From: Clostridiales bacterium DTU070
GTDB lineage: Bacteria > Bacillota > Clostridia > DSM-8532
Reading direction: 5' to 3'
DNA: 37,733 nucleotides
Assembly: GCA_001513105.1 (NCBI GenBank)
Contig: LFSH01000090.1
Coordinates: 1 to 37,733, forward strand
A program made the translations under genes and the position numbers. This document shows, one piece after another, positions 26,852-37,733 of this stretch (position 1 is its first letter; each line of letters opens with the position of its first letter). The notes below the pieces were generated by a model. That model worked only from the letters and a program-made list of their open reading frames with translations. It ran no database searches and was not told the DNA's origin.

Positions 26852-28366
26852 TCATTCAGCAAGTTTCATTGTGACTGCTGTCCAGCCCGTAATTTCAATC
26901 TTGTCGGTTCTTGGATTTATTCTGCATGATTTTATTACCTTGCAATTTTTTACATCATAAAATACCGCATCATACAGATTCCCATCCGGTGAACCTTCCC
27001 TAAAGCCAATCCAAAGGGTTTTCCCCTTCATTTCGTTTTTGAAGAACAACAGGTAAAACTCATTTCCCTTGGACAGTGAGAAATAATTGTGGCCGTCGGT
27101 GTTAATGTAGTCCCTTTTCATCTCCTGCCACGGGCATGTCATTACAATTTCCTTCAGAAACTTAAGGCACGGCGCACTGCCGCCAATCATATCCCCGCCA
27201 TAGGACCAGAATATATCGCGGGTATTGCCGTCAGTTATGAAACACTCTCCATGGGTTGCATAACCGCCCGCCATTACCGAGAGCCAGTGGCGCAGCAGCG
27301 TTAATTCGGCAGACGAATTTCCCCAGCAGTCCGGAAGATTTCCTTCGTACTGGTATTCATCATTGATAACCGGCTTTTTATATTCCCTTTTAAGTTCAAG
27401 CATAAGGGTATAAGTATCGGGATGCTGATATGATACATGGGTCATCCACGGACGATCGGGATATATCCATCCAAAGGAAATATTGTGGCATGACCTTGGG
27501 TGGCCGTACGGATCATTCGCTTTTATATATTCACCGATAACATCCCAGCTCCTGTGCGTTTTGCCTAATGTGAGCCTTCCCGGATTATCTTCGTCATAAC
27601 CTATATCATATTCGTTCGCAAGGCTCCACCAGACATTCCTGAATGCCGACAGCCTGTTTATAATATATCCCAGGTAAAGAAGCGCATCCTCTTCGTCCAT
27701 TCTGTCGATATCCCAGTGACCATAGTCATACGGATGGAACAGGATTACATCAGCCTCTATACCGAGCTCACCCAGTTCTTTTACCCGTTCTTCAAACAAA
27801 CGGAAATATTCCGGATTCGGACGTGTAAAATCAAATTTCTTCGGTTCTCCTTCAAACGGATAACAAGGAGGTTCATAGCTTACATCCACTGCATTGAACT
27901 TGCCTGTATAATGCTTCGGGAAGAAAAGCATTCTTATTTTGTTGAAACCATACTCCGAGAAACTGCGCAGCGTTCTTTCCCGTACTTCTGCAGGCCGGTA
28001 ATGCCATGCATACGCAGTCGTTCCCATGACAAAAAACGGCGTACCGTCAGCGTATGTAAAATGTTCACCCGTTGCTTTTACAGGACCGTGATTGTTTTCT
28101 GAAGGCGGAGTAACGGTAAATGTGCCTGAAATATTATTCATGTCCGGATCATTTGAAAAAACCGTATAACTGTATTCACCTTCAAATTCAGGCATAAAGC
28201 GTATTTTGTAAATTCCGTCCCCGTCATAAAAGCCATGCACGACTTTCTTACAGCCAGAATTATAAAAACATGCCTTAAGTTTGACATCGGTAAACGGGTT
28301 GTTATAATTTATTTTTGAACACAGCTGAAGCTCAAAGATTCCCCATTTTTCAACAGTTGAATTCAA
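26852..28366 (-). CDS. DUF5060-DUF4038-like TIM-barrel glycosidase
   Basis: This encodes 504 residues of a poorly studied glycosidase type. Residues about 3-88 form a DUF5060 Ig-like domain; about 95-400 form a DUF4038-type TIM barrel; the last 80 form a beta-sandwich (DUF5605-like). Candidate catalytic residues are Glu252 in SLANEYDIG (acid/base) and Glu337 in NDEYQYEG (nucleophile), an arrangement of clan A glycosidases with retaining mechanism. There is no signal peptide. TTG at 28366 is the start, 8 bases after GGGGGTGA. It is the first gene of the isomerase/kinase/transketolase operon, which suggests it releases the sugar that those enzymes consume. The DUF5060 domain closely resembles an insert in the neighbouring DUF1593 protein. 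Confidence 0.85.
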   Translation of the reverse strand: MNSTVEKWGIFELQLCSKINYNNPFTDVKLKACFYNSGCKKVVHGFYDGDGIYKIRFMPEFEGEYSYTVFSNDPDMNNISGTFTVTPPSENNHGPVKATGEHFTYADGTPFFVMGTTAYAWHYRPAEVRERTLRSFSEYGFNKIRMLFFPKHYTGKFNAVDVSYEPPCYPFEGEPKKFDFTRPNPEYFRLFEERVKELGELGIEADVILFHPYDYGHWDIDRMDEEDALLYLGYIINRLSAFRNVWWSLANEYDIGYDEDNPGRLTLGKTHRSWDVIGEYIKANDPYGHPRSCHNISFGWIYPDRPWMTHVSYQHPDTYTLMLELKREYKKPVINDEYQYEGNLPDCWGNSSAELTLLRHWLSVMAGGYATHGECFITDGNTRDIFWSYGGDMIGGSAPCLKFLKEIVMTCPWQEMKRDYINTDGHNYFSLSKGNEFYLLFFKNEMKGKTLWIGFREGSPDGNLYDAVFYDVKNCKVIKSCRINPRTDKIEITGWTAVTMKLAE

Positions 28367-28435
28367 ACCAGGCTCACCCCCGTTAAGTAAAAAGATGTGA
28401 TAAAAGCTGAAATTTTTAACTAAAAATATAATTTA

Positions 28436-28464
28436 ATTATATAATGTTTTTTTAATTGCGTCAA
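28436..28464 (-). promoter_or_regulatory. Promoter of the glycosidase-transketolase-kinase-isomerase operon
   Basis: On the minus strand TTGACG (28459-28464), a 17-bp spacer and a perfect TATAAT (28436-28441). The predicted leader is about 65 bases. TTTTTAACTAAAAA around 28412-28426 lies just downstream of the start site; a similar CTGAAATTTTTAAC-CAAAA sequence recurs near 28641. Confidence 0.75.
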
Positions 28465-28473
28465 TGAATTTCA

Positions 28474-28509
28474 TTAAATTATTTAAGTCTTGTTAAGTAA
28501 GTTTTAAGT
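28474..28509 (-). promoter_or_regulatory. Phased array of TTAAGT hexamers
   Basis: TTAAGT occurs at 28483-28488, 28493-28498 and 28504-28509, with a weaker TTAAAT at 28474-28479. The starts are 9-11 bp apart, one helical turn, on the upstream side of the -35 element. It is a likely binding site for an activator, possibly of the response-regulator or AraC type; no such gene is in the window. Confidence 0.5.
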
Positions 28510-28707
28510 ACGTGCGGATATGATACTGTACATTGCCATGAACAGGTTTTACATGTCCTTTTCTTTGATTTCAGGAAAAACTGCACCCTGGTTCAGTTTA
28601 TATTAACAGTCCTGTATTTATATTTTCTCAAACCCGTATACTGAAATTTTTAACCAAAATATAAATTTATGATTAAGCCGGTATAAAATACAGGGATAGG
28701 CTGTTAA

Positions 28708-28744
28708 ATAAAAAGCCCCGAAAACCTTCACTATGGCTCAGGGC
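28708..28744 (-). terminator. Terminator of the GH140-like/DUF1593 unit
   Basis: On the minus strand GCCCTGA / TCGGGGC (7 bp, one G-T) with a 16-nt loop is followed by TTTTTATTT, 80 bases after the DUF1593 gene. It separates this unit from the next operon. Confidence 0.75.
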
Positions 28745-28823
28745 AAAAACAACTCGCTATCCCGTTAATCCATGACACAAAATATTGCTTCCATATGATA
28801 ATCCTTATATAATGCGATTACTG

Positions 28824-30059
28824 CTATAAGCACCGGTCAAGCCTTGCCTGAAAATCACGCAGAAACTCTTCCCTCCATATATTCACGGTTTTGGCACCCT
28901 TATGTTCCTGTTCAGCATAATCTGCATCAATTATGTCGGACCACCAGTTCGGATAACGGTCCTCGTTCCCTCTGCGTCCTTCCCGGGTTTCTTCCGTGCA
29001 TGTAAACATACCTGATAATCCGTTCAGTTCAGGGATATCACTCGTTGTTGAATAATTCCACAAACCGGTTGCCTTCGGCATGAAACGAACCCTGTATTCA
29101 CCGTTCCCGCAGTAGTATCCATAGAACTCCTGTTCCTGGACAACAAGGGAAAAAGCAGGTTCATCAGGATCCATTTCAATATGCGGGCCGCTGAAAATCA
29201 GCTCCAGTACGCCATACACCTCTACCGTGTCTTTAGGACCTGTAATTCCCCGGTATATTGACTTCGGCCTGTTCCCAACCCGTACAAAAGAGCCGCCCCA
29301 TGACGGTTTTTCAGGACATTCAGGAGTTCCTTTAAGCAGGTATGCAACTGACGGTGTATCTCCCATTTTAATGACTCCGTCCAGGTGCTCGGCAAAAAAA
29401 TTCCCCAATGCGCCATGCCCTGAAACATGGTTGCTTACGAATGATTTGTTGCCCAAATCATGCAACTGGTTACCACCGACAAACCAACCCCTGTATGTTG
29501 AGTTGTTTTCAATTATCCACAGATCGGGAAAATTTTCATGGATGTATTCATAAGCATTCAGACCCCATTTTTTGTTCGGCCCTGCAATATAATAAACCCT
29601 TAATTTATCCTTGATATCCGGCGCATCATGCAATGCCTGGGCAAGATCTTCCAGCAGTCCCCATATAAGTATATACAAAGGGCGCGGATCATCTTTTCGC
29701 GCACACCGGATGATCCAGTCCGAACCTTCGGTTGCATTACTGTACCCTTTGAACGGTGCAAAATCTATGATTCCCTGTTTTGTAACCGATCTCAGGTAAC
29801 CCGGAGCCGGATAACGGGAAGAAAAGGCACGCAGTTTCGGGTAATCCGCTTCATACTGTTCGATTACTTTCAGGATATCTTTTACAGTGCCTTCTCCCCA
29901 TGGTGAAGAAATCAGTCCTTCGGTATCGAACAGGTCGGAATAAAGCAGATAGTGCACCATTGACTGAAAATCATCAGGATCGCTTCCGCCTATATCTGTT
30001 GAAACTATAACCCGGTAACGCTCTCCCGCCAAAGCCCCTTTTGTCATATGATCTGACAT
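28824..30059 (-). CDS. Sde182-type (DUF1593) nucleoside-hydrolase-like protein with inserted DUF5060 domain
   Basis: This encodes 411 residues. Residues about 14-275 form a nucleoside-hydrolase-like fold with the metal/ligand loop STDIGGSDPDD (21-30). A DUF5060-like Ig domain follows at about 278-356, and the nucleoside-hydrolase-like fold then resumes with the family's closing segment NWWSDIIDADYA...WREEFLRDFQARLDRC (371-410). So the Ig domain is placed inside the parent domain rather than at its end. The typical separate C-terminal domain of this family is missing. There is no signal peptide. Function is unknown; relatives were named cellulose-binding, but a glycosidase-like or ribosyl/apiosyl hydrolase role is conceivable. 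It lies 88 bases behind the apiosidase-like gene, with GGAGGATG before its ATG. Confidence 0.85.
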   Translation of the reverse strand: MSDHMTKGALAGERYRVIVSTDIGGSDPDDFQSMVHYLLYSDLFDTEGLISSPWGEGTVKDILKVIEQYEADYPKLRAFSSRYPAPGYLRSVTKQGIIDFAPFKGYSNATEGSDWIIRCARKDDPRPLYILIWGLLEDLAQALHDAPDIKDKLRVYYIAGPNKKWGLNAYEYIHENFPDLWIIENNSTYRGWFVGGNQLHDLGNKSFVSNHVSGHGALGNFFAEHLDGVIKMGDTPSVAYLLKGTPECPEKPSWGGSFVRVGNRPKSIYRGITGPKDTVEVYGVLELIFSGPHIEMDPDEPAFSLVVQEQEFYGYYCGNGEYRVRFMPKATGLWNYSTTSDIPELNGLSGMFTCTEETREGRRGNEDRYPNWWSDIIDADYAEQEHKGAKTVNIWREEFLRDFQARLDRCL

Positions 30060-30147
30060 TTCTTCATCCTCCGTTCAAATCAATTCTTATATATTTCCAT
30101 TACGCCTTCGGACAACCGGCGATGGTTTCACAGCAGTCAATTTCCTG

Positions 30148-31488
30148 TCAAAAATAGTCCTTCCCGCTGTCGGTAATGATTAATACATAATCGGTCCCGG
30201 AGTTGTTCTTTTCGGGGGGTGTAAATTCCATTATCCCTTTGTTTTCATATACTCCTGCCTTTTGTATTTCTCCGGTCTCAGGATCAAACCACGATGCGCA
30301 CACCCTGTCGCCTGTTATTTTCCCCATTTTCACACGGATGCTCAGTCGGGTACAGGTATAAACAAAAATATAGTCCGATCCTCTTGTTGCGAGCAGGCGG
30401 TCATATTTCTCTCCGCAATCTCCGTCAATCACCGACTGATCAGGCACCCTTTCAAAATACGGAACCGACAGCATCAGTTTCTTCAAATAACGCATCTGCC
30501 CGCCACCTGCGGCATCCAAAGCATCATACCAGTATTCGCGCACACCGTAGCTGCCTTTACTGCCGTCGGGTTTATGCATCTGCATTACAGCATTATGGCC
30601 ATATGTATGCCCGCAGGAGCCTGCGAAAACAGACCAGTACGCGTACCTGCGCACATCATTAGCATCCCAGTACGGCTGTGTCGGATCGTGTAATCCATGA
30701 GGAATGCTCTCATAGGAGGGCTCACCGTCCAGAACGGGTTTAACCGGAGTTTTCCGGTAATCATTAACAACATAGCGCCAGTTATCCTGCCCAATCCATA
30801 ATCTTTCATCATCTTCCTCTTCAGCTTTCACTTTCTGGTCATAGCGCCTGTGCCCGGACTGAAACATGTTGAAATCAAGCCAGGAAACTTCATGAAACCA
30901 TTCCGAAGACTGCGTTCTTCCGAACGGGTGAAATGTCATTAATGAATCCGGGTTATGGGTTTTAATTGTTTTCCCCAGTGTATCCCATACGTCGTAATGC
31001 CTGTCCCCCCTGGTGTCTCCGCCGAGAATCCAGATGATGTTCTTCCTGTTTTTGAAATGTTCTGCAAGCCATCTTCCGTATTGAACAACATTATCCATAT
31101 TCAGGATCCCATTCTCAGCTATGCTTCCCCAGACAGGAAGAAGACCCACGTACAGGCCTGCTGATTCGGCCATGTCCAAAACCCTGTCAATATGGTTCCA
31201 GTAACTGTCCGGCTTTTTCAAATCAGGACTTCCGGATACAAATGTTTTCGTAATGCTCCCGTCATATAATGCCGGTTCACCGTAAACATTCCTGTCGGTG
31301 GCCTGATGTATAATCACTGACTGAATAACATTAAAACCTTTGCCCTGCCTGTCCTTTATGTACTTTCCGGCTTCTTCAGTGCTCAGTTTCTGAAACAGAA
31401 GCCACGCAGTATCCCCAAGCCAGAAGAATGGTTGTCCGCTTTCATACATAAGGAATCTTTTGTTTTCCGACACTATTATTCTTTCCAT
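30148..31488 (-). CDS. GH140-like (DUF4038) glycosidase, candidate apiosidase
   Basis: This encodes about 446 residues. Residues about 5-345 form a DUF4038 TIM barrel starting with RFLMYESGQPFFWLGDTAWL, followed by a C-terminal beta-sandwich of the putative collagen-binding type (about 355-446). This is the architecture of GH140, whose founding member BT1012 cleaves D-apiose from rhamnogalacturonan II. Candidate catalytic residues are Asp158 in ILGGDTRGD (acid/base) and Glu256 in VLDGEPSYE (nucleophile), matching the Asp/Glu pair reported for that family. There is no signal peptide, unlike the Bacteroides enzyme, so it would act inside the cell. The ATG at 31488 follows GGGGTGACC; a start seven codons upstream is less likely. 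Family membership is a recall-based call. Confidence 0.85.
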   Translation of the reverse strand: MERIIVSENKRFLMYESGQPFFWLGDTAWLLFQKLSTEEAGKYIKDRQGKGFNVIQSVIIHQATDRNVYGEPALYDGSITKTFVSGSPDLKKPDSYWNHIDRVLDMAESAGLYVGLLPVWGSIAENGILNMDNVVQYGRWLAEHFKNRKNIIWILGGDTRGDRHYDVWDTLGKTIKTHNPDSLMTFHPFGRTQSSEWFHEVSWLDFNMFQSGHRRYDQKVKAEEEDDERLWIGQDNWRYVVNDYRKTPVKPVLDGEPSYESIPHGLHDPTQPYWDANDVRRYAYWSVFAGSCGHTYGHNAVMQMHKPDGSKGSYGVREYWYDALDAAGGGQMRYLKKLMLSVPYFERVPDQSVIDGDCGEKYDRLLATRGSDYIFVYTCTRLSIRVKMGKITGDRVCASWFDPETGEIQKAGVYENKGIMEFTPPEKNNSGTDYVLIITDSGKDYF

Positions 31489-31591
31489 ATGGTCACCCCG
31501 TATTTGCATTGTGTTTTCACCAGGAATTCAGCAAGAAGTGTTGAACAGATCAACGCCGATCCTCAGAAAATACTGAAAACTTGATAATCAT

Positions 31592-31620
31592 ATTGTAATT
31601 GATACTGCTGAATAAGTCAA
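31592..31620 (-). promoter_or_regulatory. Promoter of the GH140-like/DUF1593 unit
   Basis: On the minus strand TTGACT (31615-31620), a 17-bp spacer and TACAAT (31592-31597). The predicted start is near 31585, about 95 bases ahead of the gene. Confidence 0.7.
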
Positions 31621-31628
31621 TTATACCG

Positions 31629-31665
31629 TTAAGTGATTTACTTAAATTATTAAGCTGTCTTAACT
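31629..31665 (-). promoter_or_regulatory. Phased array of TTAAGT-type hexamers
   Basis: TTAAGT (31629-31634), its inverse ACTTAA (31640-31645), TTAAGC (31650-31655) and TTAACT (31660-31665) start 11, 10 and 10 bp apart. The array begins 8 bp upstream of the -35 element. It resembles the array at 28474-28509. Nothing further is seen in 31671-31845. Confidence 0.5.
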
Positions 31666-31846
31666 AAAACATTGCTTCGATAAGTCATATATGGGTTTAA
31701 AAAATGAATCTGCACATTATCCATCGGACTTTTGCATAATCCCTTTCGCAGCATAAGATTAAACGAATTGCCTGCCAGGGTCGATAAATGCTGGCAGAGT
31801 GTTTATGTTTTCAGTTCTTTCAGCGAAGAATTAATTCGCGCGTTAA

Positions 31847-31891
31847 ATGAATAAAGCCCGAAAACCGGTGATGCTATACGGTTTTCAGGCT
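31847..31891 (-). terminator. Terminator of the superoxide dismutase gene
   Basis: A 13-bp stem (31855-31867 with 31879-31891, one G-T) and an 11-nt loop. On the minus strand it is followed by TTTATTC. It lies 98 bases after the stop codon. Confidence 0.75.
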
Positions 31892-31988
31892 CGTGCATCC
31901 GCTGCCTGGTTATGGACACATTGAACCGGACCTGAAGGGGGCCATCAGTGCAATACCTTGAAACATGGGCGTAAATAAACATTACACC

Positions 31989-32639
31989 TCAGAAAACTGC
32001 CTGTTCCATAACAAGGGAAACCCTTCCGTTCATGGCGTCTATAAGTCTTCTTTCAACCTCGTTCCAGTTTATCAGCTGCCACCATGAATTTACATAGTCC
32101 GCCCGCCTGTTCTGGTAGTCCAGGTAATATGCATGCTCCCATACATCGCATACAAGAACGGGAATCCCGCTCCATTCGGTAAGGTTCTGGTGCTTTTCGG
32201 CCTGTAATATTTCAAGCCTTCCCCATGAAGGCTGCCAGGTCAGTATACACCATCCCGACGCCTCAACATTTACGGCGGCAAGAATGAACTGGTTTTTCAT
32301 GGCTTCAAGACTGCCGAAGTATTGGTTTACATGGTAAACCGTCCTTGGCCCCGGCTGGCCTCCCCTGCCCAAAGGCGCCATAACAGTCCAGTATATACTG
32401 TGCAGTATGTGACCCGAACCGTTGAAGGCCAGTTCATTTTCCCAGTACTTGATATACTCAATATCGTTTGTCTTTCGTGCCTCTGCAAGATACAGTTCCG
32501 CCCTGTTCAATCCGTCCACATAGCTTTTATGGTGCCTGTCGTGATGTATCCTTAATGTTTCCTCACCAATTACCGGTTCAAGGGCATCATACGGGTACGG
32601 CAGAGGCGGCAGCCTGTGCATTCCCGGCAAAACATACAT
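31989..32639 (-). CDS. Iron/manganese superoxide dismutase
   Basis: This encodes 216 residues. It converts superoxide to O2 and H2O2 in the cytoplasm. The N-terminal helical hairpin has LPPLPYPYDALEP and the first ligand His in RIHHDRHHKSYV; the second His is in GHILHSIYW. The C-terminal domain supplies Asp and His in DVWEHAYYLDYQNRRADYV. All four metal ligands are present; whether Fe or Mn is used cannot be decided here. The ATG at 32639 follows AGGAAAGGA by 8 bases. The gene is an outsider among pectin enzymes, with its own terminator, a likely own promoter and a large leader hairpin. Confidence 0.93.
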   Translation of the reverse strand: MYVLPGMHRLPPLPYPYDALEPVIGEETLRIHHDRHHKSYVDGLNRAELYLAEARKTNDIEYIKYWENELAFNGSGHILHSIYWTVMAPLGRGGQPGPRTVYHVNQYFGSLEAMKNQFILAAVNVEASGWCILTWQPSWGRLEILQAEKHQNLTEWSGIPVLVCDVWEHAYYLDYQNRRADYVNSWWQLINWNEVERRLIDAMNGRVSLVMEQAVF

Positions 32640-32699
32640 ATGCAGCATCCTTTCCTGGATAAAATACAAAGTCTCATATTTTATCCTATGATGCTGCAT
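32640..32699 (-). promoter_or_regulatory. 60-nt leader hairpin abutting the SOD start codon
   Basis: Two perfect 10-bp stems stack: ATGCAGCATC (32640-32649) with GATGCTGCAT (32690-32699), and GGATAAAATA (32657-32666) with TATTTTATCC (32677-32686). They are joined by an asymmetric internal loop (7 and 3 nt) and capped by a 10-nt loop. In the mRNA the Shine-Dalgarno AGGAAAGGA lies in the internal loop and lower stem, and the start codon is the next base after the stem. It would hide the ribosome binding site when folded. Confidence 0.75.
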
Positions 32700-32714
32700 A
32701 CTTTTGGTTCGTCG

Positions 32715-32743
32715 TTTTTACATATCAGAACAAAAACAGGCAA
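32715..32743 (-). promoter_or_regulatory. Weak candidate promoter for SOD
   Basis: On the minus strand TTGCCT (32738-32743), a 17-bp spacer and TAAAAA (32715-32720) preceded by TG. The transcript would begin about 8 bases before the leader hairpin. Confidence 0.3.
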
Positions 32744-32762
32744 TACCCGGATAATCGGGGTG

Positions 32763-33803
32763 TTATATCAGTTCGGTAAGCATCATGAAGGTTAAGCCCT
32801 GGCCATAAGCCGTAGGAGCAATGGGTATTTTTTTATAGTGCTCCAAATCCTTCCCCATGCCCGTTCCATACGAAACACCATGAACCATACCGTTTTCATC
32901 TATCTTTGAAATGACGGCGCGGGCTGCTTTTCTTCCGTACTCGAGGTATTCGTCACCTATTATTCCAAGACGCACACCCTTTAATATTCCGTAAGCAATG
33001 CCTGCAGTTGCAGATGTTTCGTAGTAAGTCTCCTCAATATCCAAAAGAGTGTTGAAAAGGCCGTTCTCGCCCTGGTATTTAACCAGTTCCTTAACCTGGT
33101 CAATCCATGCGTTTATAACAAACCTTGATACCGCGTCATTAGTTCCGTAAAGTTCTATAAATTCCATGGCGCCCGAAGTAAACCAGCTGTTTCCCCTTGC
33201 CCAGAAAGCATCTGCGTAATTGTGCCTGCCGTCGAAAGTCCAGCCGTGATAAAACAGGCCGGTTTTCTTGTCCTGCAGGTATTTAATATGGAACAGGAAC
33301 TGGTATTTTGCTTCATCTATATACTCTTCCCTGCTGAACACTTTTCCTGCTTTCAAAAGGAACAATACGGTCATGAACAGTGTATCGGCCCAAAGCTGCT
33401 CATAATGGCGGTTCAGAACAGTCATATGCTGCATTCCGCCATACTGCGTGCGGGGCATTTCCTTCATCGCCCAGTCGGCCCACATATCTATATACGGGAG
33501 ATATTTCTCATTTTTCGTCTCTTCATAAAGGCATACCATGGTGAGGGCCGGGCATACCGTATTTACATTTTTATGCGGCACTGGTTTTGAAAGCTGGTAA
33601 TCATACCAGTTAATCAGGTAGTCAAGATACTTCTTATTGCCTGTTTTTTTGTATACCTTGAACATACTGTATAAGGCCACGCCTGTGGGCCACTCCCAGT
33701 TATCCATATGAAGGTGGTCATACAGCCCTTCCCTTTCCTTGTTGTTAATAAGCAAACCAACAACCTTATCAGCAAGTTCAAGCATTTCAACATTAAATGA
33801 CAT
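32763..33803 (-). CDS. GH105 unsaturated rhamnogalacturonyl hydrolase (YteR/YesR-like)
   Basis: This encodes 346 residues forming one (alpha/alpha)6 barrel. It removes the unsaturated galacturonic acid left at the non-reducing end after rhamnogalacturonan lyase action. The family motifs WPTGVALYSMF near residue 39, QLWADTLFMTV near 138 (catalytic Asp) and FWARGNSWFTSGA near 203 are present. It is cytoplasmic and single-domain, the size of Bacillus subtilis YteR/YesR. AAAGGTGG is placed 7 bases before the ATG. It follows the acetylesterase gene with a hairpin in the 105-base gap. Confidence 0.93.
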   Translation of the reverse strand: MSFNVEMLELADKVVGLLINNKEREGLYDHLHMDNWEWPTGVALYSMFKVYKKTGNKKYLDYLINWYDYQLSKPVPHKNVNTVCPALTMVCLYEETKNEKYLPYIDMWADWAMKEMPRTQYGGMQHMTVLNRHYEQLWADTLFMTVLFLLKAGKVFSREEYIDEAKYQFLFHIKYLQDKKTGLFYHGWTFDGRHNYADAFWARGNSWFTSGAMEFIELYGTNDAVSRFVINAWIDQVKELVKYQGENGLFNTLLDIEETYYETSATAGIAYGILKGVRLGIIGDEYLEYGRKAARAVISKIDENGMVHGVSYGTGMGKDLEHYKKIPIAPTAYGQGLTFMMLTELI

Positions 33804-33852
33804 TTAACATCCACCTTTCCTTTTTATCCTGATTAAATTGCCTGGAAACCAG

Positions 33853-33902
33853 GAAAACTGCCTGTTCCCGGAGTTTCAACCCGACACTCCGGGGAAGACA
33901 GG
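33853..33902 (-). terminator. Imperfect intercistronic hairpin
   Basis: The arms 33861-33874 and 33886-33902 pair with small bulges around the core CCCGGAGT/ACTCCGGG; the minus strand then reads CAGTTTTCC. It may partly stop transcription or protect the acetylesterase mRNA. Confidence 0.5.
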
Positions 33903-33908
33903 ATTACG

Positions 33909-34589
33909 CTATTTCAAGTGTTCAGCCAGGGGCAGGTTAACCTGTTTTATTCCCTGAACCACAAGCCCCGCAATTTCATACGCGCCGGTTTCGTTAAAAT
34001 GCGTGTTGTCTTCGGAGCCCTCAGGATAATTCGGCGACTCCCCAGGCTTTAAAAACAGGAACAGTCTTTTTGACTCCTCTTCGCCAAGCTTCTTGTAGTA
34101 TTCCTCGCTTAATGCAGTGAGATCAATGAAAGGAACATCCAGTTCCTCGCAAAGCTCCTTTACAGCTTTCGGATACGCGCCATGGGTTGGATAAAACTCG
34201 CCGAAAAGATTGAATCTCCTCCTGTTAACCGGAGAAATCAAAACAGGCAAGGCTCCCTTTTCCCTGGCCCCGTCAACATACCGCTTCAAATATGCCTGGT
34301 AAGTACCGAAGGGATCGGCATACGCGCCATGAAGTTTTTCATCATTATGGCCGAACTGCACAAGCAGTGTATCTCCCGGCTCTATTTGTCCCAGGATTTT
34401 GTCAAGAAGTCCTTCGTCAATGAAACTCTTAGTGCTTCTTCCTCCCAGCGCATAGTTGTAAACATGCACATAATCCTTAAAATAACGCGGAAGCATTTTA
34501 CCCCATCCTTCCTGGGGTTTGTAGCCGCTTGCACAGTTTTGAACCGTTGAATCTCCTGCAATATATATTTTAACCGTTTTTTCAGACAT
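33909..34589 (-). CDS. Rhamnogalacturonan acetylesterase, SGNH hydrolase (YesT/RhgT-like)
   Basis: This encodes 226 residues and removes acetyl groups from the galacturonate of rhamnogalacturonan I. The four SGNH blocks are visible: AGDSTVQN with the catalytic Ser near residue 12, ALGGRSTKSF with the oxyanion Gly, FGHNDEK with Asn, and the DNTHFNETGA block with Asp and His. The ATG at 34589 directly follows the stop of the large GH105 gene, with GGAGG inside that gene's last codons, so translation is coupled. The longer frame to 34610 would overlap the upstream gene and lacks a binding site. There is no signal peptide, so the substrate is an imported oligosaccharide. Confidence 0.93.
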   Translation of the reverse strand: MSEKTVKIYIAGDSTVQNCASGYKPQEGWGKMLPRYFKDYVHVYNYALGGRSTKSFIDEGLLDKILGQIEPGDTLLVQFGHNDEKLHGAYADPFGTYQAYLKRYVDGAREKGALPVLISPVNRRRFNLFGEFYPTHGAYPKAVKELCEELDVPFIDLTALSEEYYKKLGEEESKRLFLFLKPGESPNYPEGSEDNTHFNETGAYEIAGLVVQGIKQVNLPLAEHLK

Positions 34590-34590
34590 A

Positions 34591-36762
34591 TTATCTGCCT
34601 CCGTTGCCAAGCCATTCCAAAAGTTTTCCGTATTCCACGCCTGCCAGCAAAACGATGCCGGTGCCGTGGGTATCGTTCAGCAGCCAGCCAAGGTCGTTTG
34701 TGTAATAATCTTCGGAGAAGGAAAAACCCGAGCCCCTGCAGATTCCATATACATTTCCGTTCATGTCTATTGCCTCGTTGCAAAGCCCATTCCAGGCTTT
34801 AAGCACCGCTTCGGCATATTTCCCGGGTTCTTTCAGCCATGAATTGCGTACACCCCGGGCAAAAGCACAGGCAAACATTGAAGTACACGATGATTCAGGG
34901 TAAGAGTCGTGATCGGTCAAAACCTGGTGCCAGAATCCCTTTTCGTCCTGAAGCGAAAAGTAACCCTCGCAGAGCTCATTGAAATTATTAATGAGCTCTT
35001 CCCTTAACTCATGATTTTCGGGAAGATAACTTAAAAGCTCGGAATATGAAAATGCAACCCAGCCGTTACCGCGGCCCCATGAAACCTCGGTAGCTTTTCT
35101 GTGTTTTACATCATAAACATGGGACATTATTTTCCTGTCGGGCCTGAACAGGTATTTATGGTACAGTAACAGCTGTTTTGCCGCATCATCTATAATTTCC
35201 TGTCTTCCTGTCAGCCTGTAATACCTGCACAGGAAAGGAACACTCATATAAAGGTCGTCGGCCCAGAGTGTTTCATCCATCAGCAGGTGTTCAGGGTTAA
35301 CACGGTAGAAGGCCCCGTCGGGAAGCCTGTGCAGCCTGTTTATAATAAAATCCGCTATATAATCGGCTATTTTTACATAATCGTCCTCGTCGAGTTCGCC
35401 CGAGGCTTCAAGCATCAGGGAACCGAATGAACCGCAGTCATCAAGGGTGCTTATCGTGGAAAGAAGGTTATGCATGCTTGCAGCGCCGTAATTCTCCTTA
35501 TCCCACAACGCATATTCAAAGAAACGCGTACACATTTCAACATGTTTTGCCGTATAGTCCACAAGCGCACTGTCATTAATGAACCTGCCGGCTTCAATAA
35601 TACCGTACAGCGTAACGCCAAGGGGATAGTTCCAGTGTCCGAATAACCTGTTATCGTTATATGGTCTTACAAAAGTATGGGGTCTGTCAAGCCTCCAGAA
35701 CACCTTTCTTCCTGCCCCGTCCATTGGTCTGTCGGCTGAGTAGGCCTTATCCGGTTCAATGCTTACAGGCAGTGAAAACGGCCCGGCATAAACCCATTTT
35801 TCATCCGTTCCTTTTACATTCAGCGGGTTTATGAAAGGAATAATTTCATCCCCATAAAAGCAATCGGCTTTAAAACCCCAGTCGGTATCGCCGCACTGGT
35901 TTATAACCAGTATATTGTGACAGCCATAGCTAATATTGACTTTGAACTCGTATTCACCCGATTTATCAGAATCAAAAACCGGCCTGTCATCTATAATAAA
36001 CCGGATATTCCCGGTATTTATGCCCTTAACAGTGTATTCGCCGCTTTTTTCCGCGAAAATCCTTGTCCATGCAATCGCATAGCAGCCTTTTCTCAGGGAA
36101 TACATTCTTTTCATCTGCCCCATGCTCTCCTCTTCGGGCAGCCAGTTCTTCAGCGGATACCAGGTTACTCCGGTCTCTTCCTCTGTCATTCCCGGCTCGG
36201 GAAGAATTTCCAACGGTTCCTTAAGCGGAAGAGTATACAGCCATCCTCTCTGCCCTTCCCTGTCTGCAGACGGGATGATGAAACTCTGAGGCCGGTTCCT
36301 TGATGAAACGGCACCCAAAACTCCGCCGCAGCCTGTATTGGTACGGATAAATCTTAAAACAAAACTGTTCCAGCCCTTTTTCAGTTTTACCGAAAAGGAC
36401 GAAGAAAGATCTCTTATTCTTTCAGCTAAAACATTTGGTTTGAAAACTCTTTCTCCATTGCAGTAAATTATAACCGGCCCGAAACAGTGTATTTCAAATA
36501 CCATTGTAATATCGTCATCGCTCCAGAGCTTGCTCCATGCATAGACATTGCTTTCCAGGTCAGCCAGCGGATACAGGTTATGGAAGTCAAAAACAAACCT
36601 GTAGTGTTTATCCTGCCTTATACCGTTCTTCTGGTACGCATAATAGGAAACTCCGAAAGGCGGATTCTGACCGATATACCGGTTTGCCACCGTTTTCAGC
36701 ACTGTTCTGATGTCCTGTGTCTTCATGGAAATGGCCTGCTCGTTCTGAAAGTAATAACCCAT
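34591..36762 (-). CDS. Large GH105-type hydrolase with N-terminal beta domains
   Basis: This encodes about 723 residues. The first about 340 residues are beta-rich, probably two jelly-roll domains (for example FEIHCFGPVIIYCNGERVF and EYTVKGINTGNIRFIIDDRPVF), not known to me as part of GH105. The rest is an (alpha/alpha)6 barrel of the GH105/GH88 type with FGHWNYPLGVTLYGI near 375, LWADDLYMSVPFL near 500 (catalytic Asp) and SWGRGNGWVAFS near 570. It should cleave an unsaturated uronyl residue from a pectin fragment, perhaps a branched one recognised by the front domains. AAGGAGG lies 8 bases ahead of the ATG at 36762. It opens a unit with the acetylesterase and the small GH105. Confidence 0.88.
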   Translation of the reverse strand: MGYYFQNEQAISMKTQDIRTVLKTVANRYIGQNPPFGVSYYAYQKNGIRQDKHYRFVFDFHNLYPLADLESNVYAWSKLWSDDDITMVFEIHCFGPVIIYCNGERVFKPNVLAERIRDLSSSFSVKLKKGWNSFVLRFIRTNTGCGGVLGAVSSRNRPQSFIIPSADREGQRGWLYTLPLKEPLEILPEPGMTEEETGVTWYPLKNWLPEEESMGQMKRMYSLRKGCYAIAWTRIFAEKSGEYTVKGINTGNIRFIIDDRPVFDSDKSGEYEFKVNISYGCHNILVINQCGDTDWGFKADCFYGDEIIPFINPLNVKGTDEKWVYAGPFSLPVSIEPDKAYSADRPMDGAGRKVFWRLDRPHTFVRPYNDNRLFGHWNYPLGVTLYGIIEAGRFINDSALVDYTAKHVEMCTRFFEYALWDKENYGAASMHNLLSTISTLDDCGSFGSLMLEASGELDEDDYVKIADYIADFIINRLHRLPDGAFYRVNPEHLLMDETLWADDLYMSVPFLCRYYRLTGRQEIIDDAAKQLLLYHKYLFRPDRKIMSHVYDVKHRKATEVSWGRGNGWVAFSYSELLSYLPENHELREELINNFNELCEGYFSLQDEKGFWHQVLTDHDSYPESSCTSMFACAFARGVRNSWLKEPGKYAEAVLKAWNGLCNEAIDMNGNVYGICRGSGFSFSEDYYTNDLGWLLNDTHGTGIVLLAGVEYGKLLEWLGNGGR

Positions 36763-36845
36763 GGATAAATCCTCCTTATTGAAAACAGCATAAATCATCA
36801 AAGGTGAAAACACAGATATTAAAAGAATTCTTCAGCTACCTAAAT

Positions 36846-37023: not shown

Positions 37024-37733
37024 TTATCTTATTAAAATATTACCAGATGTCGTATTGATTGTTACCTTGCCGCTGCCGTCTCCTATGGTGCATACCAGTC
37101 TTTTTTCATCGAAGGAAGCAATATTCAGCGGAGTATGACTGCATTTGATACGGCCCGAGAAAGTTTTTGCCTCAACAGAAAACTGGCTGTTTTCGGGCAG
37201 AGTAAGATCTACGTTTCCCGAACCGCTTTCCGCCCTAATCATGCTGAAATCATCCTCGAACTCCGCCTTAATATTGCCCGATGATGTTTTTGCCTCAAGG
37301 GAACCTGTTCTCATTTTCAGTATTATGTTACCCGAAGCCGCTGCTGCTTTCACGTTTTCAGCCACGGTTTCCTTAATGACAATATCTCCCGAGGTTGTTT
37401 CGATTTTTGCTTCGCTGCATTCAAGTTTCTCAATAAAGCATTCACCTGAAGCATCAGATAATTCAAATTTTCCCGAAAAGACTGCCTCCCTTGCCCGGAA
37501 AGTCCCTGATGAAGATTTGAAGGATCCGTCCTCTCCGTTAATGGCATCCATAACAATTTCACCTGAAGCAGTTTCCGCTTCGATATTTTTTCCGGTTACG
37601 TTCTCAATGCTGATATCTCCTGAGCTGCTTCCAATGACAATATTTCCGCACGACAGTTCCTGTGCCGTAATTTCACCCGATGCTGTACTGATATTCAAAT
37701 CATTCATCCACAATTCCGGTATAAAAACGTCCA
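37024..37733 (-). CDS. DUF4097-type beta-helix repeat protein, N-terminus outside the window
   Basis: At least 236 residues are visible; the frame stays open to the window edge (VFIPELWMNDL), so the start is outside. The sequence is a chain of about ten repeats of 18-20 residues, each with a SGEI, SGDI or SGNI turn, forming a beta-solenoid of the DUF4097 (putative adhesin) family. Members often follow a short helical domain and are encoded next to PspC or anti-sigma-like membrane genes in Firmicutes; that side is not visible here. It is unlikely to be part of the pectin locus, since a terminator and a new promoter separate them. Confidence 0.85.
   Translation of the reverse strand, partial: DVFIPELWMNDLNISTASGEITAQELSCGNIVIGSSSGDISIENVTGKNIEAETASGEIVMDAINGEDGSFKSSSGTFRAREAVFSGKFELSDASGECFIEKLECSEAKIETTSGDIVIKETVAENVKAAAASGNIILKMRTGSLEAKTSSGNIKAEFEDDFSMIRAESGSGNVDLTLPENSQFSVEAKTFSGRIKCSHTPLNIASFDEKRLVCTIGDGSGKVTINTTSGNILIR

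Follow-up and report, generated by a model that had tools for sequence, protein, structure and literature searches.

A hairpin over the ribosome binding site of a clostridial superoxide dismutase gene, with a predicted sigma-K-type promoter embedded in it

On the minus strand of a 37,733-nucleotide stretch of Clostridiales bacterium DTU070 (contig LFSH01000090.1; this whole stretch is called the window), directly ahead of the ATG of a superoxide dismutase (SOD) gene, we find by computation a large hairpin over the ribosome binding site (RBS), its partial conservation within the genus, a match to a sigma-K-type promoter, and a difference in RBS accessibility between RNAs that hold the whole hairpin and those that do not. 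The hairpin is probably a translational insulator against read-through in which the gene's own sporulation promoter is embedded, and it is of an already known kind, the RBS-sequestering read-through hairpin with an embedded promoter (sigG, T4 gene e). RNA polymerase arriving from the upstream GH88 gene would copy the whole hairpin, and in this read-through RNA the outer stem would cover the end of the Shine-Dalgarno (SD) sequence and the start codon, leaving SOD untranslated; late in sporulation, polymerase with sigma-K would initiate at ~32675, inside the hairpin, and in the resulting short mRNA, with both 5' arms missing, the RBS would be free and SOD would be made.

The hairpin and its predicted promoter

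The initial annotation had described a large leader hairpin at this site, and folding together with the pairing of the repeats confirmed it (stems of 11 and 10 pairs; Table 1). The 72-nt leader folds at -28.9 kcal/mol (z -7.6) and 0 of 300 shuffles were equally stable; a 161-nt fold around the hairpin gave z -3.8 against shuffles. When the RBS/start region was held fixed and the sequence upstream was shuffled, helices of 11 or more Watson-Crick pairs with it arose in 0.02% of cases, and helices of 12 bp or more, G-U pairs allowed, in 0.2%. The hairpin is far from what chance would give, and it is most likely functional. The SD had been placed in the internal loop and lower stem, and this held: it lies mostly in the internal loop, while the outer stem takes its last two bases along with most of the start codon, so that by folding the SD and/or the start codon is paired in the long transcript. 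A role as transcription terminator was rejected since no T-run follows the hairpin. As for the start itself, homologs align from 32639 (MYVLPGMH...), with the ATG at 32639-32637; a start at 32699, that of the longest ORF and inside the hairpin, was rejected because the added stretch is interrupted by in-frame stops in the homologs.

Table 1. Coordinates of the SOD gene, its leader and the upstream gene in the window
Feature	Sequence	Position	Strand	Remarks
Fe/Mn superoxide dismutase CDS, 216 aa		31989..32639	(-)	Pfam Sod_Fe_N + Sod_Fe_C; start by homology
Outer stem 3' arm	GATGCTGCATAT	32638..32649	(-)	SD end into start codon
Outer stem, Watson-Crick part	TATGCAGCATC x GATGCTGCATA	32700-32690 x 32649-32639	(-)	11 pairs; 12 with one G.U
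Shine-Dalgarno	AGGAAAGGA	32648..32656	(-)	GAAAGG invariant in 4 genomes
Inner stem 3' arm	TATTTTATCC	32657..32666	(-)	pairs with 32686-32677
Inner stem 5' arm	GGATAAAATA	32677..32686	(-)	10 pairs with 32666-32657; overlaps -10 region
-10 element	CATAGGATA	32682..32690	(-)	predicted sigma-K promoter; predicted mRNA start ~32675
Outer stem 5' arm	GTATGCAGCATC	32690..32701	(-)	pairs with 32649-32638; sits in promoter spacer
-35 element	GAACC (AC at 32708-32707)	32706..32710	(-)	predicted sigma-K promoter; perfect in 4/4 genomes of the genus
GH88-family glycoside hydrolase gene		32763..33803	(-)	Pfam PF07470, E 7e-94

The predicted promoter has the sigma-K form, a -35 AC and a -10 CATANNNTA at 16–17 nt; the C. 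difficile sigma-K consensus has a -35 AC and a CATA-type -10 (PMC3789822). The site AC-N16-CATANNNTA (GAAC-N16-CATANNNTA) is perfect in the window's genome (G000) and in the other three genomes of its genus, g1 (G001, G002 and G003, the last of which has no hairpin), with shuffle P values of 0.002–0.008 per genome that are not independent of one another, and three genomes of genus g4 have perfect AC-N17 sites as well. Sigma-K is encoded in the window's genome (346.6 bits vs a cut-off of 298.65); an AC-N17-CATAGAATA site stands 36 nt ahead of the ATG of sigK itself, the cotJ operon has a near match, AC-N17-CATAGGATG, and YabG, sought as a sigma-K control gene, was not found. The bare pattern was rejected as evidence, the genome as a whole showing no enrichment of it (88 sites, the reversed control having 148), and because of this the weight of the match at SOD comes entirely from its position and its conservation. 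A sigma-A promoter for SOD was also considered and rejected, none being found on this strand. Elsewhere, a gene for a rubrerythrin-like ferritin-domain protein (195 aa; L129:1474-2141) is preceded, at 26 nt from its start, by a perfect AC-N16-CATANNNTA site, which makes it a candidate late sporulation gene.

The outer 5' arm falls within the -35/-10 spacer. As the promoter lies in the 5' arm, the gene's own mRNA is predicted to start at ~32675 without either 5' arm, and for that reason the full hairpin would occur only in read-through transcripts; on this arrangement SOD would be transcribed by sigma-K from ~32675. The proposal that the hairpin hides the RBS thus stands for transcripts with the whole hairpin and falls for the predicted own-promoter mRNA, which lacks the 5' arms. 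We computed accessibility as the predicted cost, for naked RNA, of exposing the SD to start codon region in the read-through and in the short mRNA. At 60 C the two costs were 10.1 and 2.9 kcal/mol in G000, 7.8 and 2.7 in G002, and 9.9 and 3.3 in G001, and in hairpin-less G003 they were 4.1 and 4.2.

Conservation and gene neighbourhood

The GH88 gene is upstream and co-directional in all four genomes of the genus, its stop codon lying 123 nt before the SOD ATG in G000, and the distance being 99 nt in G002, 91 nt in G001 and 252 nt in G003; read-through transcripts are presumed to come from it. The GH88–SOD intergenic regions of G001 and G002 yielded no terminator, nor did that of G000 beyond one weak hairpin, so that at 123, 99 and 91 nt the SOD gene follows a co-directional gene without an effective terminator. 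G003 has an intrinsic terminator after GH88 (AAGGGTCATTTTCTTGGCCCTT then TTATTTTTT) and is the sole genome of the genus without the hairpin (z +0.86). We infer that read-through from GH88 occurs and that translation of SOD from the long RNA is blocked.

In the window, the SOD gene, probably encoding a spore enzyme, stands among polysaccharide-degradation genes (26852-36813; two GH88, an apiosidase-like gene and a GDSL esterase), all on the same strand, and at 37024-37713 the minus strand has an ORF whose 229 aa consist of short repeats of the SGEI/SGDI type. In C. difficile, SodA has been reported at the spore surface, and sodA (CD1631) is in the sigma-G list, its promoter not assigned in the table (PMC3789822); the main text of PMC3738446 does not mention sodA. 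In genus g2, 14 of 14 genomes have no SOD match yet nearly all have sigK above the cut-off; SOD is therefore not tied to sporulation throughout the family.

The outer stem of 12 pairs is kept in G000, G001 and G002 and absent in G003, and the leader fold of the three hairpin genomes has z -7.6, -4.4 and -2.9. Among these three the outer stem differs at two places, both one-sided changes from A-U to G-U, and no double compensatory change was found; the outer 5' arm is nearly invariant, whereas the sequences have diverged between the -10 and the SD. As G003 keeps the promoter without the arm, the arm is not needed for the promoter alone. Conservation does not extend to the inner stem, which G001 has lost and G002 retains in part, and in G002 the arms are 3 nt closer together. 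The look at relatives that the initial annotation had proposed as a check thus bore out the outer stem in three of the four genomes, but neither the inner stem nor any double compensation.

For a wider view we tested 31 SOD leaders, 19 from whole genomes and 12 from other contigs, and found a helix of at least 12 bp over the RBS/start region at P ≤0.0025 in six, those of G000, G001 and G002 and of three genomes of genus g6 (G008, G013 and G017). The g6 helices, of 12–14 bp, lie over the SOD start codon (P 0–0.0025), and in sequence (TTGCATAAAATCAA / TTGATTTTATGCAA in G013) are unrelated to the g1 hairpin. An ABC-transporter-like gene on the same strand ends 90–102 nt upstream of SOD in g6, and no terminator was found between the two. 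The opening costs at 60 C for read-through and short mRNA were 5.0 and 2.3 kcal/mol in G017, 5.2 and 2.3 in G008, and 8.1 and 1.6 in G013. The g6 promoter is less canonical (CATANNATG, with AC missing at the right spacing), and no canonical promoter could be assigned to these leaders. On the SOD tree the presence of a hairpin needs two changes. In seven of the 19 leaders from whole genomes a co-directional gene lies within 125 nt, and six of these carry the hairpin (the exception is G009, with its gene at 111 nt), as against 0 of the remaining 12; this association was noticed post hoc and represents about two independent lineages. G006 has an 11-pair hairpin between the upstream gene and SOD, which the scan called a terminator for the opposite strand only and which was left out of the terminator count. 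A different large hairpin (GCCGTTCGGGAAA...TTTTCCGGGCGGC) is present in two SOD leaders of genus g4 (L085 and L087, of G016 and G012); the whole of it falls between the predicted sigma-K start and the SD, and it would for this reason belong to the SOD mRNA.

Other explanations of the repeats

That the promoter is real and the hairpin a repeat without function seems unlikely to us: only three related genomes of the genus carry it, double compensation is absent, and many SOD leaders have no hairpin, but its stability stands out from shuffles in all three genomes, its 5' arm is conserved amid diverged surroundings, and the same architecture recurs in g6 with other sequence.

The initial annotation had suggested, as one of two possibilities, a translational switch, in which ordinary SOD mRNA would contain the hairpin and heat, metal or a bound protein would open it. 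Folding of the leader does sequester the SD and start codon, but we consider this reading quite improbable, and the hairpin is probably not a switch of any of these three sorts. Since the 5' arm is overlapped by the conserved promoter, the transcript of that promoter would lack the arm; in G003 promoter and gene are present but the hairpin is not, and the inner stem shows no conservation. No family of Rfam 15, thermometers and riboswitches included, matched the window at the gathering score of its curated covariance model. Nor does the folding suggest a thermometer, the cost of opening the read-through RNA of G000 falling only from 10.1 kcal/mol at 60 C to 9.1 at 65 C. A start site downstream of the hairpin had been named as grounds for giving up the switch; the start that we predict, from sequence only, lies inside it.

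Nested operators, with a protein bound to the inverted repeats repressing the promoter, would profit from symmetric arms and from an outer 5' arm well placed for a repressor between -35 and -10, yet are very improbable, as the inner repeat is not conserved, the arm change in G002 to G.U is tolerated by RNA but breaks DNA symmetry, species differ by 3 nt in the spacing of the arms, a search of the genome with the leader as probe found no second copy, and the g6 repeats, unrelated in sequence, again cover the start codon.

Comparison with known systems

The insulator with an embedded promoter would bring a stress enzyme, probably one of the spore, under a form of control known from some phage late genes and a single sporulation sigma factor, and it suggests that such hairpins can stand in for terminators. 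Before a leader fold is read as a riboswitch or thermometer, one should first ask where transcription from the gene's own promoter begins. A genome-wide search can be made for the pattern of a promoter in the 5' arm, a 3' arm that holds the RBS and a co-directional gene close by. More tentatively, spore-formers may have repeatedly evolved promoter-embedded RBS hairpins as insulators replacing terminators where a late sporulation gene has come to sit a short way downstream of a co-directional vegetative gene; the g1 and g6 SOD leaders, unrelated in sequence, would then represent two separate origins.

The statement in the initial annotation that no element of this form had been described holds for SOD genes in the open-licence literature that we searched, where we found no such description, but not for the form itself, which is known from B. 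subtilis sigG and from T4 e and I-TevI. In B. subtilis a hairpin of 20+ bp before sigG (spoIIIG) has been proposed to prevent translation when the gene is transcribed by read-through from spoIIGA-sigE (spoIIG), and it cannot form in RNA from sigG's own promoter (PMC5942855). The SOD hairpin is like it in belonging to a spore-former and in its predicted exclusion from own-promoter RNA; it differs in that sigG encodes a sigma factor and lies behind another sporulation operon, whereas here a superoxide dismutase with a sigma-K-type promoter lies behind a polysaccharide-degradation gene. The window's genome has a sigG of its own (L136, minus strand, ~2287-2345 of the reverse complement) with a TTG start, a 13-bp helix of TGGCACCTTCCCG against the RBS whose 5' arm comes directly after the GTATA -35 element, and a co-directional sigE 200 nt upstream. 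This predicted geometry matches that of the B. subtilis sigG read-through hairpin, and it shares with the SOD leader an RBS helix with its 5' arm at the promoter and a co-directional neighbour, in another gene and with another promoter class.

In phage T4 gene e, I-TevI and Aeh1 mobE, a late promoter is embedded in an RBS hairpin; the RBS is sequestered in long early transcripts, and late transcripts, which start within the 5' arm, are translated, effects that have been measured by experiment for gene e and I-TevI (PMC3014915, PMC2988022). At SOD, judging by the sequence, the position of the promoter likewise leaves the 5' arm out of its transcript, as in sigG and T4 gene e, and as in the phage genes the promoter lies in the 5' arm and the RBS of the long transcript is covered. 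The phage hairpins differ in serving early/late timing, in having T4 late promoters and in bearing no sequence relation to the SOD hairpin, and what is experimental there is computed here.
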